Source: Serratia fonticola
GTDB lineage: Bacteria; Pseudomonadota; Gammaproteobacteria; Enterobacterales; Enterobacteriaceae
DNA: 64,000 bases
Reading direction: 5' to 3'
Assembly (NCBI RefSeq): GCF_001006005.1
Contig: NZ_CP011254.1
Location: 3,844,001 to 3,908,000 of the forward strand
Positions 7,386 through 64,000 of this stretch are shown here, piece after piece. Made by a program: the position numbers and the translations under genes. How positions within the stretch are numbered: position 1 is the first letter of the stretch; every line of letters begins with the position of its first letter. The notes beneath the pieces were generated by a model. That model did not search any database. It had not been told where the DNA came from and saw only the letters and a list, made by a program, of their open reading frames with translations.

Positions 7386-7465
7386 ATTACTTGCCTCTTG
7401 TCAATTTTTAGTCTTTAGATGGATTTTTATTTTCATAATTATTATAACGAATTCACTTATAAATA

Positions 7466-7497
7466 ATACCGGGCACTCTGGGTTATTGCCCGGTATT
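7466..7497 (-). terminator. Rho-independent terminator of yegH
   Basis: Arms AATACCGGGCA / TGCCCGGTATT read on the minus strand are followed by a TTATTTAT tract. It lies 4 nt beyond the yegH stop codon. Confidence 0.75.
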
Positions 7498-7500
7498 GGG

Positions 7501-9744: not shown

Positions 9745-10644
9745 ATGCAAAAAAGATTGAAGGCCGTTATCCCAGTAGCAGGTTTGGGCACGCGTATGCT
9801 GCCCGCAACCAAGGCGATCCCTAAAGAAATGCTGCCTGTGGTCGATAAGCCATTGATTCAGTACATCGTGAGCGAATGCGTTGCAGCTGGCATCAAAGAT
9901 ATCGTACTGGTTACGCACTCATCGAAAAACGCGATCGAAAACCACTTTGATACCTCCTTTGAGCTGGAAGCGACGTTGGAAGCTCGGGTAAAACGCCAGT
10001 TGCTTGCTGAAGTACAAAGTATCTGCCCGCCAGATGTAACGGTGATGCAGGTACGTCAAGGGCAAGCCAAAGGGCTGGGTCACGCGGTGTTATGCGCTCA
10101 ACCAATGATTGGGGATAACCCATTTGTGGTGCTGTTGCCGGACGTGTTATTGGATGACTCTACCGCCGATCTGCAGAAAGAAAACCTGGCCAAAATGATC
10201 CAGCGTTTTGAGCAAACCGGCTTTAGCCAGATTATGGTTGAGCCAGTGCCAGAAGAGGACGTTTCCAAATACGGTGTGGTCGATTGCGGCGGCGTGGCGT
10301 TAGCCGCGGGTGCAAGTACGCCAATGACCGCGGTGGTAGAGAAACCTGCGCGGGAAGATGCGCCATCTAACCTGGCAGTGGTAGGGCGTTATGTCCTCTC
10401 AGCCGATATCTGGCCGTTGCTGGAGAAAACGCCTCCGGGAGCAGGCGATGAAATCCAACTGACCGACGCCATTGCCATGCTGATGGAGCAGGAAACGGTA
10501 GAAGCTTTCCATATGAGCGGCAAATCCCACGACTGTGGTGACAAACTGGGCTATATGAAGGCGTTTGTACAGTATGCCCTGCGCCACCCTTCCGAAGGCG
10601 AAAACTTTACCCAGTGGATGAAACAGACCCTGAACAGCAAGTAA
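9745..10644 (+). CDS. galU: UTP-glucose-1-phosphate uridylyltransferase
   Basis: Makes UDP-glucose from UTP and glucose-1-phosphate in the cytoplasm, the precursor for UDP-galactose through galE. The 299-aa protein has the intact nucleotidyltransferase signature [19 protein letters not shown], the LLPDVLLDD metal-binding region, the FVEKP-like VVEKPAR and [15 protein letters not shown] rather than GMR in the signature, and GAGDEIQ rather than GAWGRIQ, mark it as the catalytic GalU type. Start ATG follows GGTGGAAGAAATTT. It is the first gene after the ops element and directly precedes its paralogue galF. Confidence 0.88.
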
Positions 10645-10690
10645 TTGCCTGAGCCGGTTAGCACGACCACAAGATTTTAAGAGGAACACC

Positions 10691-11587
10691 ATGTCGAAGA
10701 AGTTGAAAGCCGTCATTCCTGTTGCTGGTCTGGGTATGCGCATGTTGCCTGCGACCAAGGCGATCCCAAAAGAGATGCTGCCGATCGTTGATAAGCCGTT
10801 GATCCAATATATCGTCAACGAATGCGTGGCTGCCGGGATAAAGGAAATCATTCTGGTTACCCACTCCTCCAAGAACGCGATCGAAAACCATTTCGACACG
10901 TCTTATGAGCTTGAGGCGATGCTGGAAGCGCGCGTGAAGCGTCAGCTGCTGGATGAAGTTAAATCCATTACGCCGAAGGGCGTAACCCTGATGCACATCC
11001 GCCAAGGACAACCGAAAGGGTTGGGGCATGCGGTACTTTGTGCCAAACCACTGGTAGGTGATTCACCTTTCGTGGTGGTGCTGCCGGACGTGCTGCTGGA
11101 TGACGCCAAGGCGGATATGCACAAAGACAACCTGGCGCATATGATTGCCCGCTTCGAAGATAACGGGCTGAGCCAGGTGCTGGTGCAGCCTGCAGATGAG
11201 AATGTGCTGCATGATTACTCGGTGGCGGAATGTGAGACCACTACCCTGCAACCAGGGGAAAGTTCACGCATGACTTCGATTATTGAGAAGCCAAGCCGTG
11301 AAGTGAAACTGAAATCCAATTATTCTGCTGTAGGCCGTTATGTGCTCTCTGCCGACATCTGGCCGATTTTGGAAAAAACTCAGCCAGGCGCCTGGGGCCG
11401 AATTCAACTGACTGATGCGATTGCTGACCTGATGAAACAACAGACGGTAGAAGCGATGGAACTGGTGGGAGAATCGTTCAACTGCGGTGAAAAACTAGGC
11501 TATCTGCGAGCCTTTGTTACCTATGGCTTACGCCACCCAACGCAGGGCAAAGCATTCCGTGAATGGGCCGAGAAGCTAAAATTGTAG
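10691..11587 (+). CDS. galF: GalF, GalU-like regulatory paralogue
   Basis: 298-aa paralogue of galU that in E. coli is thought to modulate UDP-glucose pyrophosphorylase rather than catalyse well. It carries the GalF hallmarks [14 protein letters not shown] (threonine of GTR replaced by methionine) and [12 protein letters not shown]. Otherwise it aligns with the preceding galU over its whole length, so the pair is a tandem paralogue. Ribosome site GAGGAACACC precedes the ATG. galF is the classical left boundary of enterobacterial capsule and O-antigen loci. A likely terminator follows. Confidence 0.88.
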
Positions 11588-24867: not shown

Positions 24868-25737
24868 ATGAAAGGAATTGTACTCGCGGGTGGTTCAGGT
24901 ACTCGTTTGTATCCGATTACACGTGGTGTTTCTAAGCAACTGTTACCAATTTATGATAAACCGATGGTTTATTACCCGATCTCAGTGTTAATGCTGGCAG
25001 GTATTCGCGATATTTTAATTATATCTACCCCTGAAGATATGCCTTCGTTCAAACGCTTATTGGGCGACGGAAGTCGCTTTGGTATTAAGCTGAGCTATGC
25101 AATCCAGCCAAGCCCTGACGGTCTGGCTCAGGCCTTCCTGATTGGTGAAGAGTTCATCAATGGTGATCGTTGTGCATTGGTTCTGGGGGATAATATTTAT
25201 TTTGGCCAAAGTTTTGGCAAAAAACTTGAAAATGTGGTCGAAAAAAATTCCGGAGCTACGGTGTTTGGCTATCAAGTAATGGACCCTGAACGTTTTGGCG
25301 TGGTTGAGTTTGATGACAATTTCCGCGCATTATCCCTTGAAGAAAAGCCAACTGTACCGAAATCTAACTGGGCGGTTACCGGCTTGTATTTTTACGATAA
25401 TGAAGTCGTTGAAATGGCAAAACAGGTTAAACCATCCCACCGTGGTGAGTTAGAGATAACTACGCTTAATCAAATGTACCTGGACGCAGGTAAGCTAAAT
25501 GTTGAGTTGCTTGGCCGGGGTTTTGCTTGGTTAGATACTGGTACTCACGACAGCTTGGTCGAGGCATCTCAATTTATCCATACCATTGAAAAACGTCAGG
25601 GTTTTAAAGTTGCTTGTCTGGAAGAGATCGCTTTCCGCAAGGGTTGGCTTTCTCGTGAGCAAGTTGCTGAAGAAGCAAGATTACTTGGCAAAACACTCTA
25701 CGGCCAGTATTTGTCGCATCTAATTGGGGAGTTATAA
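24868..25737 (+). CDS. rmlA: Glucose-1-phosphate thymidylyltransferase, first copy
   Basis: First step of dTDP-L-rhamnose synthesis, making dTDP-glucose. 289 aa with the nucleotidyltransferase signature [39 protein letters not shown] and [16 protein letters not shown]. Ribosome site TAGGA precedes the ATG. Very similar to the second copy (29683-30552); both look intact, including [16 protein letters not shown] near the product-feedback site. Confidence 0.95.
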
Positions 25738-25738
25738 G

Positions 25739-26275
25739 ATGCAGGTAATAGACACAAAAATCGATGGTGTGAAAATCATCCAGCCGAAAGTATTTGGCGA
25801 TGCTCGGGGTTTTTTCCTCGAAACGTTTGAAAAGAAACGTTATCAAGAAATGCTAGATATTGACCTTGATTTTGTTCAGGATAACCACTCGCGCTCTGTG
25901 CGTGGTGTATTGCGTGGCCTTCATTTCCAAAAGATAAATCCTCAGGGCAAACTGGTTCGTGTTGTGCGTGGCGAAGTGTTTGACGTTGCGGTAGATATCC
26001 GTCATGGCTCTCCAACTTACGGTGCTTGGGAGGGGGTTATCCTCTCCGAAGAAAACAAAACCCAGTTCTGGGTTCCGCCGGGTTTGGCTCATGGTTTCGT
26101 TGTGCTTTCCGATGTTGCAGATTTCGAATATAAATGCACCGATTATTATAATCCAGCACATGAAGGCTGTCTGCTATGGAATGATCCACAAGTTGGTATT
26201 GAATGGCCGATCGATAATCCATTGTTGTCCGAAAAAGATAAAGTCGGCATGTTATTCCAGGATCTAGGGCTATGA
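25739..26275 (+). CDS. rmlC: dTDP-4-dehydrorhamnose 3,5-epimerase, first copy
   Basis: Double epimerisation of dTDP-4-keto-6-deoxyglucose. 178-aa cupin with DARGFFLETF, QDNHSRSVRGVLRGLHFQ (catalytic His in GLHFQ), VFDVAVDIRHGSPTYG and VPPGLAHGFVVLSD. Start ATG 25739 overlaps the rmlA stop region (TAAGATG). I count 12 differences in 178 residues from the second copy. Confidence 0.95.
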   Translation: MQVIDTKIDGVKIIQPKVFGDARGFFLETFEKKRYQEMLDIDLDFVQDNHSRSVRGVLRGLHFQKINPQGKLVRVVRGEVFDVAVDIRHGSPTYGAWEGVILSEENKTQFWVPPGLAHGFVVLSDVADFEYKCTDYYNPAHEGCLLWNDPQVGIEWPIDNPLLSEKDKVGMLFQDLGL

Positions 26276-29668: not shown

Positions 29669-29682
29669 TTTAAGGTGTGAAA

Positions 29683-30552
29683 ATGAAAGGTATTGTTTTA
29701 GCGGGTGGGTCAGGCACACGTCTTTATCCTATTACTCGTGGTGTTTCAAAGCAGCTCTTGCCGATCTACGATAAGCCGATGATTTACTATCCGCTTTCAG
29801 TATTGATGCTGGCGGGGATCCGCGACATTCTGATTATCTCCACGCCAGAGGATATGCCGTCATTTAAGCGGTTACTCGGCGACGGGAGTCGTTTTGGCAT
29901 CTCATTGAGCTATGCCATTCAACCTAGCCCGGATGGATTAGCGCAGGCATTCCTGATTGGCGAAGAGTTCATCAATGGGGACAGTTGTGCTCTGGTATTA
30001 GGGGACAATATTTTCTTTGGCCAGAGTTTTGGCAAGAAGTTGACGTCTGTAGTTGATCGTAACCAGGGTGCAACCGTATTTGGCTACCAGGTCATGGATC
30101 CTGAACGCTTTGGCGTGGTGGAATTTGATGATGACTTCCGGGCATTATCTCTGGAAGAAAAGCCAGCGAAACCTAAATCCAATTGGGCCGTTACCGGGCT
30201 TTACTTCTATGATCATCATGTTGTTGAGATGGCGAAGCAGGTCAAGCCATCCGCACGTGGTGAACTAGAGATCACCACTCTCAACCAGATGTATCTGGAT
30301 AAAGAGGCTCTCAACGTTGAGTTGCTTGGGCGCGGTTTTGCGTGGTTGGATACCGGTACTCACGATAGTCTGATTGAGGCTTCCCAGTTTGTACATACGA
30401 TCGAAAATCGCCAAGGGTTCAAAGTTGCTTGCTTGGAAGAGATCGCCTACCGCAAAGGGTGGCTGACTCGTGAGCAAGTAGAGGCTGAGGCTAAACTGCT
30501 TAGCAAGACCCTGTACGGGCAGTATTTATTGCAACTGAGTTTGGAGAAATAG
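29683..30552 (+). CDS. rmlA: Glucose-1-phosphate thymidylyltransferase, second copy
   Basis: 289-aa protein with all motifs of the family intact ([45 protein letters not shown]). The ATG at 29683 has AAGG at good spacing; an in-frame GTG at 29677 is too close to it. Differs from the first copy mainly in the regions after residues 110 and 200. Confidence 0.95.
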
Positions 30553-30553
30553 A

Positions 30554-31090
30554 ATGCAAGTCACAGATACCAAAATCGATGGTGTGAAGATTATTCAACC
30601 CAAGGTATTTGGCGATGCACGAGGCTTTTTCCTTGAGACGTTTGAAAAGAGACGCTACCAGGAAATGTTAGATATCGATCTGGATTTTGTTCAGGATAAC
30701 CACTCGCGTTCATCACGCGGTGTGCTGCGTGGCCTGCATTTCCAAAAGATAAATCCTCAGGGCAAACTAGTGCGTGTAGTGCGTGGTGAAGTGTTTGATG
30801 TCGCGGTTGATATCCGTCCAGGCTCTCCAACGTACGGTGCTTGGGAAGGGGTGATCCTTTCCGAAGAAAACAAAACCCAGTTTTGGGTCCCACCGGGCTT
30901 GGCTCATGGTTTTGTTGTGCTTTCTGATGTCGCAGACTTTGAATATAAATGTACGGACTATTACAATCCTGCACATGAAGGCTGTTTGTTATGGAACGAT
31001 CCAGCGGTGGGAATCGAATGGCCATTAGAGAACCCGCTACTTTCTGAAAAAGATAAAATTGGCAAACTTTTTAAGGAGTTAGGCCAATGA
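30554..31090 (+). CDS. rmlC: dTDP-4-dehydrorhamnose 3,5-epimerase, second copy
   Basis: 178-aa cupin, about 93 percent identical to the first copy by direct reading (12 changes, five of them in the last 15 residues). Catalytic GLHFQ block intact. It begins 1 nt after the rmlA stop and overlaps rmlD by 4 nt, the same tight packing as in the first operon. Confidence 0.95.
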   Translation: MQVTDTKIDGVKIIQPKVFGDARGFFLETFEKRRYQEMLDIDLDFVQDNHSRSSRGVLRGLHFQKINPQGKLVRVVRGEVFDVAVDIRPGSPTYGAWEGVILSEENKTQFWVPPGLAHGFVVLSDVADFEYKCTDYYNPAHEGCLLWNDPAVGIEWPLENPLLSEKDKIGKLFKELGQ

Positions 31091-51937: not shown

Positions 51938-54106
51938 ATGAATTTTCTTAATAAAAAAAATACAGCGATCTCACCTATCGCCATTTCTGCGCTGTTACCT
52001 TGCGCTCTGTGTGTGGCGGTAAACGTACAGGCCAGCGATCGGGCAGTGGACCAATCTTCCATGGTGGTCACGGCCAAGCGCAGCGGTCTTTCAGAATTGA
52101 GTACTCCGGCAGCGGTTAGCGTGCTTAATGGCGATGAACTTCGTCAGGCCAGGCCGCAGATTAATCTCTCCGAAGGGCTGGGCAGCGTGCCGGGGCTGCA
52201 AATTCAAAATCGCCAGAATTATGCGCAAGATTTGCAACTGTCAATCCGTGGGTTTGGCTCGCGCTCAATGTACGGTGTACGCGGCGTGCGCATTTATGTG
52301 GATGGTATTCCTGCCACCATGCCGGATGGTCAAGGGCAAACGTCGAATATCGATCTTAATTCAGTGGATAAGATTGAGGTCTTGCGCGGGCCGTTTTCTG
52401 CTCTGTATGGCAACGCTTCTGGTGGCGTCATCAACGTAGAGACCGAAACCGGCCAACAGCCGGACAAGATTGAAGCGGGTATGTATAGCGGCAGTGACGG
52501 CACCTGGCGCTACGGCATGAAAGCCAGCGGTGCAACCGGCGATGGCACGCACGCAGGTGACGTGAACTACGCCGTCTCCGCGACTCGTTTTACTACCGAA
52601 GGGTTCCGCGACCACAGCGGGGCACGCAAGAACCTGGGTAACGCGCGTTTGGGTGTGCGCATTGATGATGTCAGCACGCTGACGCTGTTGTTTAACTCGG
52701 TGGATATTAATGCCGACGATCCCGGTGGTTTAACCGAAGCCGAATGGCACGACAATCCGCGCCAGGCACCAAGAGCAGGTCAATACAACACGCGTAAAAC
52801 CATTTCGCAAACCCAGGCCGGGTTGCGCTATGAACGCCAGATGAGCGCCAATGACGATCTGAGCATCATGACTTACGCCGGTGAGCGGGAAACCACGCAG
52901 TATCAGTCAATTCCTGTAGCCGTACAGCAGCGTAGTGAACAACATCCCGGCGGAGTGATCTCTCTGGCGCGTCATTACCAGGGCATCGATACTCGCTGGA
53001 CTCATCGCGGTGAAATCGCCACGTTGCCCTTCAGCGTGACGGGGGGGCTCGACTACGAAACCATGACTGAGCAGCGCAAAGGCTATGAGAATTTCACGGT
53101 AGTCAACGGCGTTAGCGAATTAGGGACCAAGGGTAATCTACGGCGGGATGAACGCAACCTGATGTGGAATGTGGATCCCTATCTGCAAACTTCCTGGAAC
53201 CTGACCCAACGTTTGACGCTGGATGCCGGAGTGCGCTTCAGCACCGTCAATTTCGATTCCAACGATCACTATATTACCGGCAGTAATGGTGATGACAGTG
53301 GTGACGCCCGCTATCACCAGTGGTTGCCAGTAGGCTCGCTCAACTATGCGTTGACCAAGGGCTGGAATGTGTACGCTTCCGCCGGGCGTGGCTTTGAAAC
53401 CCCTACCATCAATGAACTCTCTTATCGCCCAGGTGGCGTGGCGGGGCTCAATCTTGGTCTAAAACCTGCTACCAGCGATACCGTTGAACTGGGAAGCAAG
53501 ACCCGTATCGGCAACGGCCTGTTCAGCGCGGCGTTGTTCCAGACGGATACCAAAAACGAAATTGTCGTCGATGAGAGCAGCAACGGGCGCACCAGCTACA
53601 AGAACGCGGGGCAAACCCGTCGCCGTGGGGTGGAGTTAGCGCTGGATCAACAGTTCAGCTACGACTGGCGTCTGCAAATGGCCTGGACGCTGCTGGATGC
53701 CACTTACCGCGATGATGTCTGTGGCGACAGCACCTGTTCTGCCGCAAAGCAGGTGCCAAAGGGCAACCGCCTGCCCGGGATTGCCCGCAATATGGGGTAC
53801 GCCTCGCTGGCCTGGTCGCCGCCGCAAGGTTGGTTCGCCGGTGCTGAAGTGCGCTACATGAGCGATATCCAGACCAACGATCAGAATTCACAGCAGGCAC
53901 CGTCCTACACCGTGGCGGCGCTGAATACCGGATATCGCTACCCGGTAGGGAACTGGCAATTTACCGTTTTTGGCCGGGTGGACAATCTGTTTGATCGCCA
54001 GTACGTCGGCTCGGTGATTGTCAACGAAGGCAATGGCCGCTATTTCGAACCTGCTCCAGGCAGAAACTGGGGTGGGGGCATGAGTGTTGCTTATTCATTT
54101 GAGTAG
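51938..54106 (+). CDS. pqqU: TonB-dependent PQQ receptor PqqU (YncD)
   Basis: Outer-membrane receptor that takes up the cofactor pyrroloquinoline quinone using TonB energy. 722 aa: signal peptide ending VNVQA, TonB-box-like SSMVVTA, plug domain with LSEGLGSVPGLQIQNRQNYA, LSIRGFGSRSMYGVRG and VEVLRGPFSALYGNASGGVINV, then a 22-strand barrel ending in FE. It matches E. coli YncD (PqqU) closely as I recall it, including IYVDGIPATMPDGQGQTSNI and VNEGNGRYFEPAPGRNWG. The neighbouring gene encodes a PQQ enzyme, which supports the role. PQQ synthesis genes are not in the window. Confidence 0.88.
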   Translation: MNFLNKKNTAISPIAISALLPCALCVAVNVQASDRAVDQSSMVVTAKRSGLSELSTPAAVSVLNGDELRQARPQINLSEGLGSVPGLQIQNRQNYAQDLQLSIRGFGSRSMYGVRGVRIYVDGIPATMPDGQGQTSNIDLNSVDKIEVLRGPFSALYGNASGGVINVETETGQQPDKIEAGMYSGSDGTWRYGMKASGATGDGTHAGDVNYAVSATRFTTEGFRDHSGARKNLGNARLGVRIDDVSTLTLLFNSVDINADDPGGLTEAEWHDNPRQAPRAGQYNTRKTISQTQAGLRYERQMSANDDLSIMTYAGERETTQYQSIPVAVQQRSEQHPGGVISLARHYQGIDTRWTHRGEIATLPFSVTGGLDYETMTEQRKGYENFTVVNGVSELGTKGNLRRDERNLMWNVDPYLQTSWNLTQRLTLDAGVRFSTVNFDSNDHYITGSNGDDSGDARYHQWLPVGSLNYALTKGWNVYASAGRGFETPTINELSYRPGGVAGLNLGLKPATSDTVELGSKTRIGNGLFSAALFQTDTKNEIVVDESSNGRTSYKNAGQTRRRGVELALDQQFSYDWRLQMAWTLLDATYRDDVCGDSTCSAAKQVPKGNRLPGIARNMGYASLAWSPPQGWFAGAEVRYMSDIQTNDQNSQQAPSYTVAALNTGYRYPVGNWQFTVFGRVDNLFDRQYVGSVIVNEGNGRYFEPAPGRNWGGGMSVAYSFE

Positions 54107-54218
54107 TAAGCAGTAGTACAGCGGGGAACCTAACCCCCGTTGAGTTGTTATCTTGGGATGGTTATTTATTACACCAGTGAGTGCGCCAAAATTTGCGCGT
54201 TGCTAGCGGTGGGAGAAA

Positions 54219-56618
54219 GTGAATATGGCAAAGACAGGCAATAAACGAAGTATAGGGAATTACTTGATGTGGCTGCTGGGGGGGCTGATGGGTGTCATCG
54301 GCCTCGCGCTGGCAATCGGCGGCGTTTACCTGGCTTCATTGGGGGGGAGCCTCTATTTTGGGCTGATGGGCGTGGTGATGCTGATCGCTGCGGTACTGGT
54401 GATCAAGCTCAAACCTGCGGGCATATGGGTGTATGCGCTGGCCTTTGTGTTCACCCTGATTTGGGCGTTGTGGGATGTTGGCCTGGATTTCTGGCCGTTG
54501 TTCTCACGCTTGTTTATGTTCGGCGTGCTGGCCTTCCTGGCCGCGTTGGCCTATCCATGGTTGAAGAAACGTGCCGGTCATCCGGTTCGCGGCTTCGTCA
54601 GCTATTCTTTGGCTGGGTTGCTGGCGGTTGCGCTGGTGGCCGGATTTGGTTACACCTTTGTGCCTACGCCACTGGTGGCGGCCAAGGAAGATATCCCGGT
54701 TAAACCGGTGGCTGCCGGTAGTGAGCAGAAAAACTGGGAACATTGGGGGAATACCACCCACGGTGACCGTTTTGCCGCGCTGGATCAGATCAACAAGTCT
54801 AACGTCAGCAAGCTGAAGGTGGCGTGGATTGCCCATACCGGCGATATTCCACAAAGCAACGGTTCCGGCGCTGAAGACCAGAATACTCCGCTGCAGGTCG
54901 GCAATACCCTGTATGTCTGTACCGCCTACGGCAAAGTGCTGTCGTTGGAGGCCGATACCGGCAAACAACAGTGGTCATTCGATCCTAAAGCCTCAGCCCC
55001 TAACTGGCAGCGCTGCCGTGGCCTGGGTTATTACGACAATGCGGCTCAGCCTGCCTCATCGCCAGTGGTTGCCGCTAGCGCTACGGCACCAGCCATGTGC
55101 GAACGCCGTCTGTTCCTGCCAACCATCGATGCGCGTTTGATTGCCATTGATGCCGATACCGGCAAACCTTGCGCCGACTTTGGTGATAACGGCACCGTCG
55201 ATCTGAAAGCGGGCATGGGCGAAGTTAAACCGGGTTATTACCAGCAAACCTCAACCCCATTGGTGGCGGGTAACCTGGTGGTCGTCGGTGGCCGCGTGGC
55301 GGACAACTTCTCTACCGGCGAACCTCCTGGTGTGGTGCGTGCTTATGATGTGCATACTGGTGAACTTGCCTGGGCATGGGATCCGGGTAATCCGGCCATT
55401 ACCAAGCTGCCACCAGCGGGTGAAACCTATACGCGCGGTACGCCGAACGTATGGTCCGCAATGTCCTACGACGCCAAACTGAATCTGATCTATCTGCCGA
55501 CCGGTAACGCCACCCCTGACTTCTTTGGCGGCGAGCGTACCGCGCTGGATGATAAATACAGTTCTTCCATTGTGGCTGTTGATGCCACCAGCGGCAAAGT
55601 GCGTTGGCATTTCCAAACCACGCACCATGATCTGTGGGACTTTGACCTGCCGTCTCAACCGTTACTGTACGATCTGCCAGATGGTAAGGGTGGCACGACA
55701 CCCGTGCTGGTGCAAACCAGTAAGCAGGGCATGATCTTTATGCTCAACCGTGAGAACGGTCAGCCGGTGGCGAAAGTGGAAGAGCGTGAAGTACCGCAGG
55801 GCAATGTGCCTGGCGAACGTTACTCCAAAACCCAGCCGTTCTCGGTGGGAATGCCGAATATTGGCAACCAGACGCTGACCGAGTCAGACATGTGGGGCGC
55901 AACGCCGCTCGATCAACTGCTGTGCCGTATCGAGTTCAAAGGGATGCGTCACCAGGGCGTCTATACACCGCCGGGTATCGACCGTGCTCTACAATATCCT
56001 GGCTCGTTGGGCGGGATGAACTGGGGTAGCGTTTCGGTGGATCCGAACAATGCCATCATGTTTGTTAACGATATGCGTTTGGGGCTGGCCAACTCGATGG
56101 TGCCACGCAGCAAGGTGCCGACCGGCGCCAGCGGCATCGAAATGGGTCTGGTTCCGATGGACGGTACGCCGTTCGGTGCGATCCGTGAACGCTTCCTTTC
56201 CCCACTGGGCATTCCATGCCAGAAGCCACCGTTTGGCACCATGTCAGCGGTAGACCTGAAGTCTGGCAAGCTGGTGTGGCAGGTTCCGGTAGGTACGGTG
56301 CAGGATACGGGGCCGCTGGGCATCAAAATGCGTATGCCTATGGAAGTGGGCATGCCAACGCTGGGTGCTAGCCTGTCTACTCAATCCGGTCTGCTGTTCT
56401 TTGCTGGTACTCAGGATTTCTACCTGCGTGCCTTCGATACGGCAACTGGGAAAGAGATCTGGAAAGAGCGCCTGCCAGTGGGCAGCCAGTCCGGCCCAAT
56501 GACCTTTGTGTCGCCGAAGAACGGCAAGCAATACATTATCATCAGCGCTGGTGGTGCTCGTCAGGCCGTAGAGCGGGGTGACTATGTCATTGCTTATGCT
56601 CTGCCGGACGAAAAGTAA
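54219..56618 (+). CDS. gcd: Membrane-bound PQQ-dependent dehydrogenase (glucose/quinate family)
   Basis: Oxidises aldoses (glucose to gluconolactone) at the periplasmic face and passes electrons to ubiquinone. 799 aa: five membrane segments in the first 145 residues, then an eight-bladed propeller with WEHWGNTTHGDRFAALDQINKSNV, the catalytic-Asp region TTHHDLWDFDLPSQP, and DMWGATPLDQLLCRI near the PQQ site, ending YIIISAGGARQ and YVIAYALPDEK. Length is close to E. coli Gcd (796). The wider family includes quinate/shikimate dehydrogenases, so glucose as substrate is likely but not certain. Located 112 nt after the PQQ receptor. Confidence 0.85.
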   Translation: MNMAKTGNKRSIGNYLMWLLGGLMGVIGLALAIGGVYLASLGGSLYFGLMGVVMLIAAVLVIKLKPAGIWVYALAFVFTLIWALWDVGLDFWPLFSRLFMFGVLAFLAALAYPWLKKRAGHPVRGFVSYSLAGLLAVALVAGFGYTFVPTPLVAAKEDIPVKPVAAGSEQKNWEHWGNTTHGDRFAALDQINKSNVSKLKVAWIAHTGDIPQSNGSGAEDQNTPLQVGNTLYVCTAYGKVLSLEADTGKQQWSFDPKASAPNWQRCRGLGYYDNAAQPASSPVVAASATAPAMCERRLFLPTIDARLIAIDADTGKPCADFGDNGTVDLKAGMGEVKPGYYQQTSTPLVAGNLVVVGGRVADNFSTGEPPGVVRAYDVHTGELAWAWDPGNPAITKLPPAGETYTRGTPNVWSAMSYDAKLNLIYLPTGNATPDFFGGERTALDDKYSSSIVAVDATSGKVRWHFQTTHHDLWDFDLPSQPLLYDLPDGKGGTTPVLVQTSKQGMIFMLNRENGQPVAKVEEREVPQGNVPGERYSKTQPFSVGMPNIGNQTLTESDMWGATPLDQLLCRIEFKGMRHQGVYTPPGIDRALQYPGSLGGMNWGSVSVDPNNAIMFVNDMRLGLANSMVPRSKVPTGASGIEMGLVPMDGTPFGAIRERFLSPLGIPCQKPPFGTMSAVDLKSGKLVWQVPVGTVQDTGPLGIKMRMPMEVGMPTLGASLSTQSGLLFFAGTQDFYLRAFDTATGKEIWKERLPVGSQSGPMTFVSPKNGKQYIIISAGGARQAVERGDYVIAYALPDEK

Positions 56619-56640
56619 CTAGCTGGTAGTTCACCAATAA

Positions 56641-56674
56641 ATAAAGGGGTTAGCATTGCTGCTAACCCCTTTAT
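56641..56674. terminator. Bidirectional terminator gcd / rimO
   Basis: Perfect 15-bp arms ATAAAGGGGTTAGCA / TGCTAACCCCTTTAT with a 4-nt loop, followed by TGTTTT. It lies between convergent genes. Confidence 0.88.
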
Positions 56675-56695
56675 TGTTTTCCGCGGTGGTCGAAA

Positions 56696-58027
56696 TCAGA
56701 CCTTGGAACCCCAGAGATCGTACTCGTCGGCGTTCTCAATCTTCACTTTGACGATGTCGCCGACTTTGACATTGGCTTCACCGTTGAGGTAGACCGCGCC
56801 GTCGATTTCCGGTGCGTCCGCCATGCTGCGGCCAATAGCACCTTCCTCATCCACTTCGTCGATCAGCACCAGCACTTCGCGGCCAATCTTGTCTTGCAAG
56901 CGTTGGGCGGAGATTTGCTGCTGCAGCTGCATAAAGCGATGGAAGCGTTCTTCCTTCACCTCTTCTGGCACTGGGTCAGCCAGTTCATTAGCGGCAGCAC
57001 CTTCTACCGGGCTGAACTTGAAGCAGCCAACGCGATCCAGCTTGGCTTCGGTAAGGAAGTCGAGCAGCATCTGGAAGTCTTCTTCGGTTTCCCCAGGGAA
57101 GCCAACGATAAAGGTGGAGCGCAGCGTCAGCTCCGGGCAGATTTCGCGCCAGCGCTTGATGCGCTCCAGCGTGCGTTCAACCGCGCCAGGGCGTTTCATC
57201 AGCTTGAGGATCTTCGGGCTGGCGTGCTGCAGTGGAATATCCAGATAAGGCAGGATCTTGCCTTCTGCCATCAGCGGGATCACGTCATCCACGTGCGGGT
57301 AAGGGTAAACGTAGTGCAGACGCACCCAGGCACCCAGGCTGGAAAGCTGCTCACACAGGCTGACCATGCTGGTTTTTACCGGCTGGCCGTTCCAGAAACC
57401 GGTACGGTGTTTGACATCGACGCCGTAGGCTGAGGTGTCTTGTGAGATCACCAACAGCTCTTTCACCCCAGATTCCACCAGGCGTTTGGCTTCATCCAGC
57501 ACGGAGCCGATCGGGCGGCTGTCCAAGTCGCCACGCATCGATGGGATGATGCAGAAGGTGCAGCGATGGTTACAGCCTTCGGAAATCTTCAGGTAGGCGT
57601 AGTGCTTTGGCGTCAGCTTCACGCCCTGCGCCGGGGTCAGGCTGGTAAAGGGGTTATGTTCCGGTTTCGGCACATATTGGTGAACGTGGGACAAAACCTG
57701 TTCGTAGCTGTGCGGCCCGGTAATTTCCAGGACCTTCGGATGCACCTCACGGATTTGGTTTTCCTTGGCACCGAGGCAGCCGGTCACAATCACCTTGCCA
57801 TTCTCGTTCAAGGCTTCACCGATCGCTTCCAGTGACTCTTGAACGGCGCTGTCGATAAAGCCGCAGGTGTTCACGATCACCAGCTCGGCATCATCATAGC
57901 GAGGCACTACCTGGTAACCTTCGTTACGCAGTTCAGTCAGGATCCGTTCAGAATCAACCAGGTTTTTCGGGCAACCTAGTGAGACAAAGCCGACACGGGG
58001 GGCTTTTGGGGTCATAGTTTGTGACAT
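56696..58027 (-). CDS. rimO: Ribosomal protein S12 methylthiotransferase
   Basis: Radical-SAM enzyme that methylthiolates Asp89 of S12. 443 aa: N-terminal MTTase domain with three cluster cysteines ([21 protein letters not shown]), radical-SAM motif [32 protein letters not shown], and a C-terminal TRAM domain ([29 protein letters not shown]). Length typical. Transcribed alone, convergent with gcd. Confidence 0.96.
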
Positions 58028-58166
58028 AGCTCAATCCAAAATAGAAACGGGCGGATTTTACACTTGGGCAACGGGAAATTACACCGTTATATGTTGGCGG
58101 CGTAAACAAAAACGGCCTAGATTGATGACAAAGTGGCCGGATTTTTAACGGCCAAACTGTTCGACC

Positions 58167-58191
58167 GTAGGGGCGCTGCATGCTGCACCCG
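58167..58191. repeat. 25-nt palindromic repeat, left of mini-island
   Basis: Begins GTAGGGGCGCTGCATGCTG and ends CACCCG. It is the reverse complement of 60269-60293 with one mismatch, so the two copies flank most of the island in inverted orientation. A third, degenerate copy is at 1412-1436. Confidence 0.75.
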
Positions 58192-58245
58192 TCTAGACGC
58201 ATCAGCAGCAGTCTCAGCTATAGCAGTATAAGCCGTTTTGATGGC

Positions 58246-58288
58246 GATCTATAACCAGCCGGAACGCTTGAGTTTTTGGTACAGGAAG
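58246..58288. repeat. 43-bp direct repeat, left copy (corA 3' end)
   Basis: Identical over 43 bp to 60325-60367, which is the last eleven codons and stop of the CorA-family gene plus 3 nt. This copy is detached from any corA coding frame. The pair bounds a 2.1-kb segment, as expected of an integration target duplication or a displaced gene end. Confidence 0.9.
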
Positions 58289-58451
58289 CAAGCTAAGAGG
58301 TCCGGAATTCTAATGGGGTTAACTCTCTCAACGAGCTCAATCTCGCTTATGCGTAGACTCTCACTAGGTTGTTACAACGTTTAAGGTAAAGTTGTTCGCA
58401 CGGATGACGATAACAGCAGAAACGTATGGTTAGACTAAGGAGCGATTTTTT

Positions 58452-58835
58452 ATGAAGAAGTTGTTAATACTTTCGTTATTGTTCAGTTCACCGTTATATG
58501 CAGCAGAGGCTGATGTGGGGAAGGCCTGTAAGGCCGCAGCTGCTTCTATGTTCGGCCGCGATCACAAGATCATGAAATTGGACAAGGTTAAATCAGGTAT
58601 AGCTTATGTTCATTACATTAGGAAGGACGATAACTCCCGTTGGGGTATCAAGTGCAAGCTAATCGGCGATCAAGTTTTATGGGCTTCAGATAACCCTGAT
58701 AGCATTGGTCGTTGGCGTGATGATCCTATGGATAGTGTCGTGAAATACTCAATCAGTGGGGGGGATTTAACGGTCACTGAAACGTATAGTGATGGCTCCA
58801 GTACCAAAAATACCTATCCAATTAAGCAACTTTAA
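58452..58835 (+). CDS. Small secreted protein of unknown function
   Basis: 127 aa; a clear Sec signal peptide (MKKLLILSLLFSSPLYA, cleavage at YA-A) and a mature part of about 110 aa with two cysteines (GKACKAA, GIKCKLI) that could form one disulphide. The mature half is rich in beta-strand-like stretches (VKYSISGGDLTVTETYSDGSS). I do not recognise the family. TAAGGAG lies 9 nt before the ATG, so it is likely expressed. It is inside the 43-bp-repeat island, followed by its own terminator. Confidence 0.75.
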   Translation: MKKLLILSLLFSSPLYAAEADVGKACKAAAASMFGRDHKIMKLDKVKSGIAYVHYIRKDDNSRWGIKCKLIGDQVLWASDNPDSIGRWRDDPMDSVVKYSISGGDLTVTETYSDGSSTKNTYPIKQL

Positions 58836-59156
58836 GCGAAATAAAAAAGCTTTCTTGCCTACATTTGCAAGGAGGCTTTTATCCCCAAAATGAAAGCTAT
58901 ATTCTTTGGGGATTCATCAGGGTGTATCAGTTTTTTTATTAATTAATATAATAATCAATATCATAGCTATGTTTTGCGTTTGTTCTGGATCCTCGGGAAA
59001 ATCTCGCAATCGGAACTGATCGTTAGCTGTTGGGTGAAATTTCGTATAGGTATCTCTGTTTGTGGCATTGGTTGGAAATCGGATTTTTCTAAAAGGGTAA
59101 GCTTGATACCAAACAATGCTGCTGGCGGCCGCAAAAATAAGGCAAAAGGATACTTT
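58836..59156. other. Intergenic region within the mini-island
   Basis: 321 nt with the terminator at 58845-58880, then AT-rich DNA. The HNH-protein frame stays open back to 58974, but no ribosome site supports a start there. A promoter for the HNH gene is expected here. Confidence 0.4.
58845..58880 (+). terminator. Terminator after small secreted protein gene
   Basis: 14-bp arms AAAAGCTTTCTTGC / GCAAGGAGGCTTTT with two G-T pairs, ending in TTTT. Close behind the stop codon. Confidence 0.8.
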
Positions 59157-60212
59157 ATGAGTTTGAGTAAAACAGGTTATCCCGATGGGGAACGGGTCAG
59201 GGCTGTTTGGGATTGCTGCCACGATCTGTATGTTCAATTAGGTCGGGCACCAACCAGTCAAGAATTTAAGGCAGAGATCAACAGACGTGAACCTGACAGG
59301 GTTGGGATTAGCACCCATTCGCGACAATGGGGGGATTGGATGCGTTATCATGGATTTAGTAGTAATACTTTGCTTGATGATCATGAGATTCCTGATGAGT
59401 ACCTTGAACCTAACCGACTCAGAGTTGTTTATGCTGTTCGAAAGTTAGGCGAGGCTTCAGCCATCGATGTAATAAATTGGATAATGAATAGCAACGCCCC
59501 ACTAAAAGCGAATGAAATTCGCATTCAGTTGGACGCGTTAACTGTGAACAGTAATCATCGATATCGCTATTTACAAGGAAGAACAGATACGCGAAGCGAT
59601 AAGGGGCATCCTTGTGATACCTTTTACCGTTCAGGAGAGCTGAGAGCTACGCGCTATGTCGAATATATTCCTGAATTGCATGGTGTATGGGATATAGCTG
59701 ATGATGGAAAGACCCCGATTAAGATTGTAGATCCGTGGCATACCGATGCGATCATGCACCAACTCCGTATTGAAACTTGCGACAATGACACAGAAACAAC
59801 AGATGATGATTTCAACGATGCTCGCGTGAGGGCAATGCGTGAAGCTGTCATTCGCGAAGGGCAACCTATCTTTAGACGGCGGCTAATGGCGGCCTATCAG
59901 GGAAAATGTCCCGTAACGGGCTCAACTATTACGGCATTGCTTGAGGCTGCACATATCAGGCCTTACGCAGGAGCATGGCATTGTGAGGCAAAACACGGAA
60001 TTCTCCTTAAAACCGATATTCATACGCTTTTTGATAAAGGCCTACTTTGGCTTGATGATGATTTTCAAGTCTGTTTGGCCCCTATGTTATTAGATTCCGA
60101 GTATGCAGAATTGTTAGGCCGAAGGATTGATCTGCCAAATTCCAAGGGCGATTGGCCACTGAGAGAACATCTGGCTCGCCATCGAGAGTTTTGCACTGGT
60201 ATTTTGCAGTAG
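59157..60212 (+). CDS. HNH endonuclease-domain protein
   Basis: 351 aa from ATG 59157 (MSLSKTGYPDGERV), which has AAAAGGA just upstream. The C-terminal third is an HNH_2-type nuclease domain: RRRLMAAYQGKCPVTGSTI, LLEAAHIRPYAGAWH and HGILLKTDIHTLFDKGLLWL, with the expected His and Asp residues. The N-terminal 230 residues are not recognised; residues 1-75 (GRAPTSQEFKAEINRREPDR, WGDWMRYHGF) look like a helical DNA-binding region. HNH_2 proteins occur as restriction or defence nucleases, but no methylase or partner gene is adjacent. Second gene of the mini-island. Confidence 0.78.
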   Translation: MSLSKTGYPDGERVRAVWDCCHDLYVQLGRAPTSQEFKAEINRREPDRVGISTHSRQWGDWMRYHGFSSNTLLDDHEIPDEYLEPNRLRVVYAVRKLGEASAIDVINWIMNSNAPLKANEIRIQLDALTVNSNHRYRYLQGRTDTRSDKGHPCDTFYRSGELRATRYVEYIPELHGVWDIADDGKTPIKIVDPWHTDAIMHQLRIETCDNDTETTDDDFNDARVRAMREAVIREGQPIFRRRLMAAYQGKCPVTGSTITALLEAAHIRPYAGAWHCEAKHGILLKTDIHTLFDKGLLWLDDDFQVCLAPMLLDSEYAELLGRRIDLPNSKGDWPLREHLARHREFCTGILQ

Positions 60213-60268
60213 CTAACTCCTGAAACTGGAGTCATTGATTATCTGAGTAGGCGCAGCATGGAGATAAG

Positions 60269-60293
60269 CGGGCGCAGCATGCAGCGCCCCTAC
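60269..60293. repeat. 25-nt palindromic repeat, right end of mini-island
   Basis: Begins CGGGTGCAG-like CGGGCGCAG and ends CGCCCCTAC; reverse complement of 58167-58191 with one difference. A partial copy, GGCGCAGCATG, lies just before it at 60250-60260. Confidence 0.75.
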
Positions 60294-60324
60294 GTCGCGT
60301 ATCCAGTTGAGTAATGCCAGTACG

Positions 60325-60367
60325 GATCTATAACCAGCCGGAACGCTTGAGTTTTTGGTACAGGAAG
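60325..60367. repeat. 43-bp direct repeat, right copy (in corA)
   Basis: Perfect match to 58246-58288. It spans the stop codon and the last codons (LYQKLKRSGWL) of the CorA-family gene, so the gene keeps an intact 3' end at this copy. Confidence 0.9.
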
Positions 60368-61308
60368 AAGCAACCGGCGACGGTGACGCCCAGCGTGGTG
60401 TGGTAAGCCCAGGGGAACTTCAATTCGGGCATATCCGAGAAGTTCATGCCGTACAGGCTGAAGATCACCGTTGGAATGGCCAGGATCGCCCCCCAGCCTG
60501 CCAATCGCTTAACCACTTCGTTTTGCTTGACGGTCACCAATGCCAGATTGACGTGCATGGCGTTGGTCAGCATTTCGCGCATATCATCTATCGTGCTGGC
60601 GACCTGCCGGGTATGGTCCTGCACGTCGCGAACGTAGGCCCGCAATTCTTTAGGGATCACATCCTCATGCAGATGGATCAGTTGGTTGCAGATCTCATCC
60701 ATCGGCAGGGCGGCATTACGCAGGCCGAGCAGGTGGCGGCGCAGGCTGTAGACGTTTTCGATGGCGGTTTCGTCAAACTCCGACCTGAACATGTTGGACT
60801 CAATGTCTTCGATCATCGTTTCGAACTTGCCGACGATATGGCGATAGTTGTCGACGATAAAATCCAATACCGAATACAGCGCAAAACCAGGCCCGTGGCA
60901 CAGTTGCTTGGGGTTTTCCTCTGCCTTGGCGCGGATAGGCGCATAGCTGGAAGAAGCACCGTGGCGCACGCTGATCAGGAAGTTTTTACCAACGAAAAAG
61001 TGGGTCTCACCGTATTCGACTTCTTCTTTCATCCACTGTGCGGTTTTCACCACGATGAACAGCGAGTCACCATAGGTCTCTATTTTCGGCCGTTGATGGG
61101 CACATAAGGCGTCTTCGATCGCCAGATCGTGCAGGCCGAACTCCTCCTGGATCTTGCGCATGAACGCGTCTTCCGGTTGCCACAAGCCCAGCCAGATAAA
61201 GGTGTCCGGCTCCTTGACCACTTCACTGATATCTTCAATCGTCACGTCGGTCAGCCGTTTACCGGCCTTGTACGCCACGCAGTTGATTACCATTGCTTGG
61301 GTTTCCAT
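60328..61308 (-). CDS. CorA-family magnesium/cobalt transporter
   Basis: 326-aa inner-membrane divalent-cation channel of the CorA superfamily. The N-terminal cytoplasmic funnel is followed by a long helix (MREMLTNAMHVNLALVTVKQNEVVKRL), a first membrane segment ending in the signature YGMNF, and a second segment GVTVAGCFFLYQKL. Typical length for CorA/ZntB-type proteins; it resembles the YfjQ/CorA-like group rather than E. coli CorA itself, so ion choice is open. Its 3' end is duplicated 2.1 kb away (58246-58288). Confidence 0.9.
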   Translation of the reverse strand: METQAMVINCVAYKAGKRLTDVTIEDISEVVKEPDTFIWLGLWQPEDAFMRKIQEEFGLHDLAIEDALCAHQRPKIETYGDSLFIVVKTAQWMKEEVEYGETHFFVGKNFLISVRHGASSSYAPIRAKAEENPKQLCHGPGFALYSVLDFIVDNYRHIVGKFETMIEDIESNMFRSEFDETAIENVYSLRRHLLGLRNAALPMDEICNQLIHLHEDVIPKELRAYVRDVQDHTRQVASTIDDMREMLTNAMHVNLALVTVKQNEVVKRLAGWGAILAIPTVIFSLYGMNFSDMPELKFPWAYHTTLGVTVAGCFFLYQKLKRSGWL

Positions 61309-61319
61309 CGCGTTACCTG

Positions 61320-61739
61320 TCAGTCTGTGAGGGTTTTGGTGAAGAAATAGCGTTCATGTTCTACCGGATAATCGTGTAGCGTCATCTGAAGCTGATAGCC
61401 CAGTTTTTCGTAGAATGGCCGAGCCTGGAAGCTGAAAGTATCTACCCGAGCATAGCGGCACCCAGCGGCAATCGCCTGCTGTTCGGCCGCCTGGATTATT
61501 TTCCTGCCGACCCCTTCACCCCGCAATGTATCGGAAACCCATAGCAGCTCAATGCTCAGCCAGCGGCCTACGGTGCTGCCGGTTAAGCCAGCAATCTTAT
61601 TGCCGTTATCATCCAGGGCAAATACCCCGATGTTCTTATTCAGAATATCGCCGACGAATTGATGATTATAGGCCATCAAATGGTTACGGATTTCTGCGGT
61701 TTCTTCTGGCTGTAGTGCGTCTGTTACGGTGATCTTCAT
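61320..61739 (-). CDS. GNAT-family N-acetyltransferase
   Basis: 139 aa; cytoplasmic acetyl-CoA-dependent transferase. Motif A is LLWVSDTLRGEGVGRKIIQAAEQQA (R-G-x-G-x-G), followed by VDTFSFQARPFYEKLGYQL. Start ATG 61739 follows a perfect AGGAGG; an in-frame upstream ATG at 61760 lies before that site. It lies 11 nt upstream of the CorA gene and is probably co-transcribed with it. Substrate unknown. Confidence 0.88.
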   Translation of the reverse strand: MKITVTDALQPEETAEIRNHLMAYNHQFVGDILNKNIGVFALDDNGNKIAGLTGSTVGRWLSIELLWVSDTLRGEGVGRKIIQAAEQQAIAAGCRYARVDTFSFQARPFYEKLGYQLQMTLHDYPVEHERYFFTKTLTD

Positions 61740-61870
61740 TGTGCCTCCTGGACGGTTCAACTAACTTAAGCACAGCAAAGAAAAAATGCAACATATTGAA
61801 ATTTAGATTAAAGCACGAACTTTACCGTCTGGGCTAAACTCATTGGACTCTACCAATTTAAGGAGATGAC

Positions 61871-62974
61871 ATGTTGCGGCCTTTTTTGATTGCGGGTTGG
61901 TTGCTGTTCGGCAATGGCCTGCTGCATGCGGCACCGGTAGTGACTGAATTACAGGACAGCCTTGAGCATCCCTGGTCGCTGGCCTTCTTGCCGAACGATA
62001 GCGGTATCCTGATAACGGAACGTCCTGGCCGTTTGCGGTTATGGCAGCCGTCTGCCGGGCTTTCCTCACCAATAACCGGTGTGCCAGACGTCTATGCGCA
62101 GGGGCAAGGAGGATTACTAGACGTGGTGCTGGCTCCGGATTTTGTCACTAGCCGCCGGGTTTACCTTAGCTTTGCAGAGGCAGGGGATGCAGACAAGGCC
62201 GGTACCGCTGTCGGTTATGGGCGCCTGAGTGCAGACAATAAACAGCTGGAAGATTTTCGTGTCATTTTTCGCCAGCAGCCCAAGTTGTCTACCGGCAACC
62301 ATTTTGGCTCTAAACTCGCCTTTGATCGCCAGGGCTATCTGTTTATTACCTTGGGTGAAAACAACCAACGAGCGACGGCTCAGGAAACGGACAAACTGCA
62401 AGGCAAAATTGTTCGGCTAACGGCAGAGGGCAAGGTACCCGCCGATAACCCGTTTGTTGACCAAAAGGGCAAGCGACCGGAGATTTGGTCTTATGGCCAT
62501 CGCAATCCGCAAGGATTGGTGCTGAACCCCTGGAGTGGGGAGATTTGGGAGCATGAGCATGGCCCACGCGGCGGTGATGAAATCAATATTCCTCTACCGG
62601 GCAAAAACTATGGCTGGCCGATAGCGACCTATGGAATTAATTATTCAGGGTTAGCCATCCCTGAAGCTAAGGGCCAGGTTGTGCCAGGAACCGAACAGCC
62701 GCTGAATTATTGGAAAGTTTCGCCGGGGGTCAGCGGGATGGCGTTTTACGATAACCCGCGATTCCCCCAATGGCAGCACTCTCTGTTTATTGGCGCGTTG
62801 GCACAACGGGATCTGATCCGTTTGACGCTGGACGGTGACAAAATAGTGGCAGAAGAGCGGCTATTGGGCGATCGCAATGAGCGTATTCGCGACGTGCGCG
62901 TCGGGCCGGATGGTTACCTTTATCTGCTGACCGATGACAGTAATGGGAAACTGCTGCGGGTTGGGCGCGATTAG
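61871..62974 (+). CDS. yliI: PQQ-dependent aldose sugar dehydrogenase (YliI/Asd-like)
   Basis: Soluble periplasmic quinoprotein that oxidises aldoses with PQQ. 367 aa: signal peptide (LIAGWLLFGNGLLHA), then a six-bladed propeller of the GSDH family with LEHPWSLAFLPNDSGILITERPGRL, VYAQGQGGLLDVVLAPDF, LSTGNHFGSKLAFD, GENNQRATAQ, SYGHRNPQGLVLNPWSG, EHGPRGGDEINIPLPGKNYGWP and GPDGYLYLLTDDSNG. Close to E. coli YliI (371 aa). AAGGAG precedes the ATG. Together with pqqU and gcd it makes the window rich in PQQ functions. Confidence 0.92.
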   Translation: MLRPFLIAGWLLFGNGLLHAAPVVTELQDSLEHPWSLAFLPNDSGILITERPGRLRLWQPSAGLSSPITGVPDVYAQGQGGLLDVVLAPDFVTSRRVYLSFAEAGDADKAGTAVGYGRLSADNKQLEDFRVIFRQQPKLSTGNHFGSKLAFDRQGYLFITLGENNQRATAQETDKLQGKIVRLTAEGKVPADNPFVDQKGKRPEIWSYGHRNPQGLVLNPWSGEIWEHEHGPRGGDEINIPLPGKNYGWPIATYGINYSGLAIPEAKGQVVPGTEQPLNYWKVSPGVSGMAFYDNPRFPQWQHSLFIGALAQRDLIRLTLDGDKIVAEERLLGDRNERIRDVRVGPDGYLYLLTDDSNGKLLRVGRD

Positions 62975-63104
62975 CGCCCAGTCAGATGAGTTTGAGATCG
63001 GCGGCGGTGATGACCTCTCTGGAGTTCATTCGGATAATCCGCCGCACGATTTCGTCGTCTAGCCCTGCGTTGTACGAAGAGCCTCGGTAGGGGCACTGTG
63101 GCAA

Positions 63105-63725
63105 TTAAGTGAGCGGTATCATCACCGCGTGCTGGTAAGCAGGGCGTGCGCATAACCGCTGATACCAGCGTTCCATATGCGGGCTGGGCTGGCGTTCGAT
63201 CGGCATGGAAAACCAGGCGTAAACAAAGCTGCCGAGCGGAATATCGCCGATGCCGAACTCTTGGCCTGAGAGGAAAGGCTGCTCAGCCAACGTCCGTTCG
63301 ATGATAGCAAAGTGTTGCTCCAGTTCAGCAATGCCAGCCTCAATCAGGGCCATATCACGCTTTTCGGGCGGAGTGCGAACCATGCCCCAGAACACGTTGC
63401 GGAAGGGGCCGGTGATGGTTGAGGTATTCCAGTCCATCCATTTTTCTGCCGCAGCGCGAGCCTGGAGATCCTGCGGGTAGAATGGCGTCTGGCCGAACTT
63501 GGCCGCCAGATAACGCACGATGGTATTGGATTCCCACAGCACGAAATCCCCATCCTGCAACAGCGGTACCAGACCGTTGGGGTTGAGCGATCGGTAAGGT
63601 TCTTCGTTAACCTTGCCGTAGGCACCACCGGCGTTGATATGGGTGTAATTCAGCCCTAACTCAGCGGCACACCAGCGCACTTTCTTGACGTTGTTAGAAT
63701 TTTCACGGCCCCAAATGGTCAGCAC
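63105..63725 (-). CDS. Glutathione S-transferase family protein
   Basis: 206 aa from GTG 63725 (MLTIWGRENSNNVKKV), which has AAGAGG upstream; an ATG at 63740 lacks a ribosome site. N-terminal thioredoxin-like domain with NSNNVKKVRW, NPNGLVPLL and the glutathione-binding ESNTIVRYLA; C-terminal helical domain with FLSGQEFGIGDIPLG. Cytoplasmic detoxification or reductive role expected; substrate unknown. Confidence 0.9.
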   Translation of the reverse strand: MLTIWGRENSNNVKKVRWCAAELGLNYTHINAGGAYGKVNEEPYRSLNPNGLVPLLQDGDFVLWESNTIVRYLAAKFGQTPFYPQDLQARAAAEKWMDWNTSTITGPFRNVFWGMVRTPPEKRDMALIEAGIAELEQHFAIIERTLAEQPFLSGQEFGIGDIPLGSFVYAWFSMPIERQPSPHMERWYQRLCARPAYQHAVMIPLT

Positions 63726-63798
63726 AAAGCACCTCTTCATCGACAGATAAAAGTAACTCTCATACCTACGCTACAAAGCCGTTTTTGTCACCTTGAAA

Positions 63799-64000
63799 TC
63801 AGCGTTCCCAGTGGCAGACTTCCCAACCGTGCAGCTCTGCCAACGCGCCAAGATCGCTATTCGGGTTGATAACGGTGGCGCTGTCGACGTATTCCAGCAT
63901 GGCTTTATCGTTAATGGAGTCGCTATAGCCGTGGCTATGGGCAAATTGCAGTTCAGGGTGTTGCTGTAACCACTGTTGCAGGCGGATGACCTTACCCTGC
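63799..64000 (-). CDS. HAD-superfamily hydrolase, C-terminal fragment
   Basis: Only the last 67 codons are in the window: QGKVIRLQQWLQQHPEL, then the HAD motif IV region HSHGYSDSINDKAMLEYVDSATVINPN, ending VCHWER. GYSDSxND is typical of HAD subfamily IB phosphatases. The active-site start of the protein lies beyond the window. Identity of substrate cannot be given. Confidence 0.72.
   Translation of the reverse strand, partial: QGKVIRLQQWLQQHPELQFAHSHGYSDSINDKAMLEYVDSATVINPNSDLGALAELHGWEVCHWER

Follow-up and report, generated by a model that had tools for sequence, protein, structure and literature searches.

A small integrase-free insertion resembling a genomic island at the 3' end of a corA-family gene in Serratia fonticola

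Genomic islands can occupy the 3' ends of protein-coding genes as well as those of transfer RNA (tRNA) or transfer-messenger RNA (tmRNA) genes. Phage 21 and e14 integrate at icd, and the CP4-57-like island beside ssrA in Escherichia coli I4 is a further example of an island at a gene 3' end. An integrase is usual in such islands yet not required; remnants and passive units occur without one. Restriction-modification genes may enter genomes by another route, and Nobusato and colleagues are said to have described in 2000 their insertion with long target duplication. Passages in three papers report that restriction-modification systems can insert with long, variable target duplications, on the order of 100 bp (PMC3874152, PMC3031569, PMC1643837), and one of these passages names Helicobacter pylori (PMC1643837). 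The locus considered here lies in Serratia fonticola, whose 6.0-Mb genome is one contig, within a window of 64,000 nucleotides (the whole stretch of DNA analysed; NZ_CP011254.1, 3,844,001-3,908,000). Two genes, encoding a secreted protein (SP) and a protein with an HNH nuclease domain, stand there between perfect 43-bp direct repeats of the 3' end of a gene of the CorA family of metal transporters. The unit appears to be a small, integrase-lacking member of the islands at gene 3' ends, unusual in its target and very short.

The two repeat copies (58246-58288 and 60325-60367; start-to-start distance 2,079 bp) are identical, exactly as the initial annotation of this DNA had placed them, and a 74-base query containing the repeat matched the S. 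fonticola genome at these two places only. The right copy comprises the last 40 nt of the corA-family gene, stop codon included, and 3 nt beyond, so that one of the two repeats is the intact 3' end of the host gene. Similarity to corA does not extend beyond the left copy (blastn), which agrees with the annotated orphan gene end and rules out a longer corA pseudogene, the finding that would have undermined the proposed insertion. The 163 bp adjoining the left copy were also compared with three corA ends by local alignment; for two ends the scores were no better than those of shuffles, and for the third 34/500 shuffles scored equally well. A corA-like inverted stretch, AAGAGGTCCGG, just inside the left end was rejected on the same figures. 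Assembly collapse is an unlikely source of the repeat because the genome is a single contig.

A close relative preserves the site in single copy and without interruption. The genus sample comprised seven genomes, that of S. fonticola included, and all contain corA and rimO. In a sister species (G004) with a 99% identical CorA, 449 bp of contig follow corA, and the window from which 58289-60367 (2,079 bp) has been removed aligns to it gaplessly across the junction, with identities of 317/333 in corA, 42/43 in the repeat and 102/118 downstream. Because of this alignment, the left copy is the original corA end, still in its original surroundings, and the insertion contributed 2,036 bp of cargo along with a further gene end. 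The locus is thus a genuine insertion that duplicated the end of a gene, and the corA-family reading frame was left intact, as had been proposed from the sequence pattern. Purely local duplication, which the initial annotation had entertained as an origin, is excluded: the repeats flank 2 kb of DNA that is missing from the single-copy site of G004. In another genus genome (G003), corA and rimO lie approximately 0.1 kb apart and the interval is empty. The SP gene is present in one of the seven genus genomes, contrary to the case in which all relatives would carry the same genes and repeats. A full-length relative of the HNH protein was found in S. fonticola only, among the three of the seven genomes searched; distant HNH-domain matches occur elsewhere in G004 and G006, and for the other genus genomes the corA-rimO interval was read where complete.

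The repeat is judged to be more than a chance pair. Exact direct repeats were surveyed in 1.6 Mb (27%, window included), with 24-mers found at more than six places per stretch skipped. The survey yielded 128 pairs (119, 8 and 1) of at least 30 bp, 0.3-20 kb apart. On inspection, nearly all belonged to one repetitive adhesin-like gene, to tRNA or tandem clusters, to multi-copy interspersed repeats or to larger duplicated blocks, among them a block of about 0.5 kb at 1162624/1166226 that is assumed to be paralogous. By the same inspection, the corA pair is the sole exact pair of at least 40 bp and 1-20 kb apart, within the surveyed 1.6 Mb, that lies outside repetitive genes, larger duplications and multi-copy repeats. 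A 35-bp pair was also recorded at 3980535/3983209, and in the window a pair of 32 bp (25922/30737) falls within duplicated rmlC-like genes. These belong to duplicated rmlA/rmlC-like genes (24868-26275 and 29677-31090) which, like two adjacent galU-like genes (9745-11587), are situated within or close to a surface-polysaccharide region of low GC; both sets were named from the starts of their sequences.

The cargo has a GC content below the 49-60% of the 2-kb bins covering 42-58 kb, and its non-coding stretch at 58836-59156 falls to 37.4%. Within the whole window, which includes the polysaccharide region further left, the cargo is no outlier (rank 246/620). A repetitive extragenic palindromic (REP) element, GGGCGCWGCATGCWGCGCCC, occurs at 58166-58191, outside the island, and again at 60269-60294, within it; with up to one mismatch it has 191 places in the genome. 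The presence of a member of the host's abundant REP family at the corA-side end of the island suggests that the inserted DNA originated in, or had earlier resided in, this genome or a related one. REP-mediated transposition was rejected, given that the left REP stands in the old flank, where G004 also has one, and that the family is so numerous.

Table 1. Features of the corA-rimO locus, in window coordinates (GC, guanine plus cytosine; ORF, open reading frame).
Feature	Position	Strand	Basis or detail
rimO, left neighbour, outside the island	56696..58027	-	ORF and profile match
Old corA-rimO spacer, separated from corA by the island; contains second REP (58166-58191)	58028..58245		G004 alignment
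Left 43-bp copy, orphan corA 3' end in pre-insertion corA-downstream context	58246..58288	-	Left flank colinear with sequence downstream of G004 corA
Inserted cargo, 2,036 bp, 44.2% GC	58289..60324		G004 alignment and GC bins
SP, 127-aa protein with apparent signal peptide (by eye)	58452..58835	+	ORF; AAGGAG 9 nt before ATG
Predicted 351-aa HNH endonuclease	59157..60212	+	ORF; AAAAGG 7 nt before ATG
REP palindrome inside the island, just downstream of corA stop	60269..60294	-	Family with 191 genome places
Right 43-bp copy, 3' end used by corA-family gene	60325..60367	-	ORFs and repeat search
CorA-family transporter gene, insertion target, ORF intact	60328..61308	-	326 aa; Pfam CorA 4.4e-55

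On balance, and with moderate confidence, the locus is read as a short genomic island, 2,036 bp and one copy of the repeat, for which the final 43 bp of the corA-family gene region served as the site of a site-specific recombination. This stretch would be the identity block shared by attB and attP. The island would have brought a copy of the gene's end, restoring the gene, with the displaced end remaining on the far side, and the integrase putatively responsible would have acted in trans or been lost. Site-specific integration is favoured because the border 3 nt after the stop codon fits an attachment site that restores a gene end, and would be a coincidence under random duplication. A tRNA or Rfam-type target was rejected, as the window contains no tRNA genes and its region 54000-64000 has no Rfam matches at E values up to 1.

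Several results weigh against such an integration. In accordance with the initial annotation, no integrase lies in or beside the island: none was recognized among the ORFs, and none of the 15 places in the genome that match PF00589 is in the window (serine recombinases were not searched). Lacking an integrase, the element is not classed as an autonomous integrative element. No clear inverted-repeat core was recognized by eye in the 43 bp, and the core was not found in viral contigs, whether as its exact last 26 bp or as a degenerate 27-mer. Corresponding corA ends were sought with a degenerate 20-mer, allowing up to one mismatch, in sets of 40 and 30 genomes (the latter from a sister genus; three shared, 67 distinct). 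The 20-mer had some match in 37/40 and 27/30 genomes, and lay at the corA end itself in 27/40 (judged against corA coordinates) and apparently 26/30 (judged by resemblance, with coordinates for three). A second corA end was found in none of the approximately 49 other informative genomes; S. fonticola alone has one. Finally, flanking repeats were sought at 12 relatives of the HNH gene and five of the SP gene, in stretches of 8-17 kb, for which no empty sites were aligned and of which one (L109) offered only 104 bp on one side; exact direct repeats on the two sides of the gene did not exceed 18 bp. Long repeats of this kind are thus not a constant accompaniment of the two genes.

A possible, though rather unlikely, alternative to site-specific recombination is an integrase-free insertion with long target duplication, in which a restriction-type nuclease gene entered and the target was copied on both sides. 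The island does combine a gene of this type, its restriction role being a prediction, with identical long target copies at its flanks, and neither an integrase nor another recombinase was recognized in it. However, random duplication does not require an edge 3 nt past the stop codon, the 43 bp are shorter than the order of 100 bp reported for such events, and comparable repeats were present at 0/12 other HNH loci. Moreover, the process has been reported for restriction-modification systems, whereas a methyltransferase gene is absent between the repeats.

It is distinctly unlikely that the unit is the remnant of a larger island or prophage, from which the integrase and other genes were deleted so that both attachment sites and two cargo genes were left. 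The borders would be the same as those expected of site-specific integration, such cargo does occur in larger elements elsewhere, and the low-GC non-coding stretch between the two genes would be consistent with loss. Against this, no gene fragment was recognized between the repeats, and 58245-58451 gives only short local alignments to the stretches before SP at six other loci (scores 14-25, without shuffle control); a deletion leaving both ends exact is also an extra step. A repair accident, in which the 43 bp were copied during cargo insertion through template switching or through a crossover at short homology with incoming or distant DNA, is quite improbable: the host-family REP in the island end indicates that the DNA was probably present earlier in this or a related genome, but the clean border at a gene end would be a coincidence. 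Very improbable is a mobility of the two-gene unit itself, outside restriction-modification systems, whereby a solitary HNH restriction-type gene would insert without an integrase and duplicate a long target at gene 3' ends, its own nuclease possibly making the break.

The corA-rimO interval is variable and permissive in related species; insertion at the corA end itself was seen only in S. fonticola. In G001 and G002 (loci L094 and L095), the interval contains 2.5 and 2.8 kb of other cargo. According to Pfam, both encode an Hcp protein of the type VI secretion system and G002 additionally encodes a DUF4225 protein; fragments resembling recombinases, recognized by eye from reading frames, lie close to rimO. 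In G004 (L097 and L098), the interval holds the start of a similar DUF4225-like gene, interrupted by an apparent insertion sequence (by eye); the contig ending near rimO carries a fragment that encodes a Resolvase N-terminal domain (7.5e-13). The insertions of these three genomes lie beyond the corA end; in G001 and G002 the two ends have no identical stretch of at least 11 bp in common, and no corA-end repeat was seen in G001-G004. G005 has a contig gap in the interval, broken at the ends of contigs C56 and C78 (L099 and L100) within short GGGAGAGGG-type repeats (by eye), and G006 has a different gene order. The suggestion of an integration hotspot therefore holds in part: the predicted empty site and different cargo in the interval of related species both exist, but a hotspot at the corA 3' end itself is not supported, as no second corA end and no recurrent use of the site were seen in the other genomes whose corA end could be matched.

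Both genes between the repeats, reported initially as a secreted protein and an HNH protein, are borne out, each with a plausible ribosome-binding site. The SP gene product is predicted to be a periplasmic protein. It has no match at E values up to 1 in Pfam, PADLOC or NCBIfam and no fold match in PDB at E 0.001; one viral-protein model matched its fold (TM 0.71/0.82). Its relatives are scattered in Enterobacterales and also occur on predicted viral contigs and on the CP4-57-like island. Annotated phage records contain none. Near-identical clusters in the protein database are found on one contig (98%) and on 16 contigs (91%). A 141-aa partner gene precedes SP in E. coli I4, E. coli USDA-51408, Serratia proteamaculans, Ewingella and Citrobacter (136 aa in the last). 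The distance to rimO was checked in 15 of 28 other SP-bearing genomes; of the 12 in which rimO was found, two have SP at approximately 0.2 kb and a third at 7.5 kb (G251). The close arrangement, with SP upstream of rimO (L120, Providencia rettgeri PROV023, 6446-8339; G095, G281), involves the same neighbour as the left side of the window. That SP has long resided beside rimO was considered, but recent gain was preferred, as six of the seven genus genomes lack SP.

The product of the HNH gene, of which a mechanical ORF starts earlier (58974, TTG), is probably a modification-dependent (type IV-like) restriction nuclease. It consists of an N-terminal helical part, a winged-helix-like part (~79-176) with a weak DUF7669 match, and a C-terminal HNH_2 nuclease, in which E263, H266 and H289 are invariant across 41 aligned proteins. 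The first two parts would sense foreign DNA, which the HNH part would cut. Near-identical clusters (99%) lie on 10 contigs. No HNH relative was confirmed in viral contigs, and matches in annotated phage records (nine records) all have 21-35% coverage. At two loci (L087, 7671-9404; L106, 7212-8704), a short gene for a tyrosine recombinase (200 aa, Phage_integrase 6.8e-17 in L087; shortened in L106) comes immediately after the HNH relative, the two forming a possible mobile pair. At two others, HNH relatives lie 3' of a gene resembling isocitrate dehydrogenase, named from its sequence start, at 2.8 kb (L103) and ~1.2 kb (L109); icd is a known phage integration site.

The two genes are accessory cargo that can be combined, and no fixed pair. 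In E. coli I4 (L153, 2870018-2873132), relatives of SP and HNH keep the order and orientation found in S. fonticola, separated by a single 274-aa gene, in an island with intA beside ssrA that, according to its annotation, also contains a set like the cyclic oligonucleotide-based antiphage signaling system (CBASS). Elsewhere, among the loci examined, the two are apart; one genome (G272) has both, on different contigs.

Here an island of very small size and without an integrase has both of its borders placed to the base and its empty site identified; such units are easily overlooked by island finders that rely on the presence of an integrase or a tRNA gene. The 3' end of a protein-coding gene becomes a candidate attachment site, and the question of by what means solitary restriction-type genes are mobilized gains a further case. 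A CorA-family transporter gene is not named as a target in the 15 titles listed out of 53 papers matched by a literature search, in which the term also matches other words.

Among the systems compared with the locus, the Hcp/DUF4225 insertions of G001, G002 and partly G004 share the intergenic interval and the presence of foreign cargo but differ in lacking a corA-end repeat, in having recombinase-like pieces near rimO and in their unrelated cargo. The HNH protein resembles the EVE-HNH nucleases VcaM4I and TagI, the latter modification dependent according to its PDB title, in its C-terminal HNH domain, related by both sequence and predicted fold. A passage in one paper describes SruGXI and HhiV4I as wH-HNH or PUA-wH-HNH nucleases (PMC11037411). 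The S. fonticola protein also shares with these families a winged-helix-like part before the HNH domain, and differs from them in an extra N-terminal helical part and in the absence of EVE or PUA from its Pfam matches. With the restriction-modification genes that insert with long target duplication, the locus shares a restriction-type nuclease gene, a long direct target repeat and the lack of an integrase or transposase, while its repeat is 43 bp, its nuclease has no methyltransferase and its edge fits a gene end. With the islands at the 3' ends of protein-coding, tRNA or tmRNA genes, it shares a repeat equal to the gene 3' end, a gene left whole, accessory cargo and a single-copy empty site, and it departs from them in having no integrase, a length of only 2 kb and a CorA-family transporter gene as its target.
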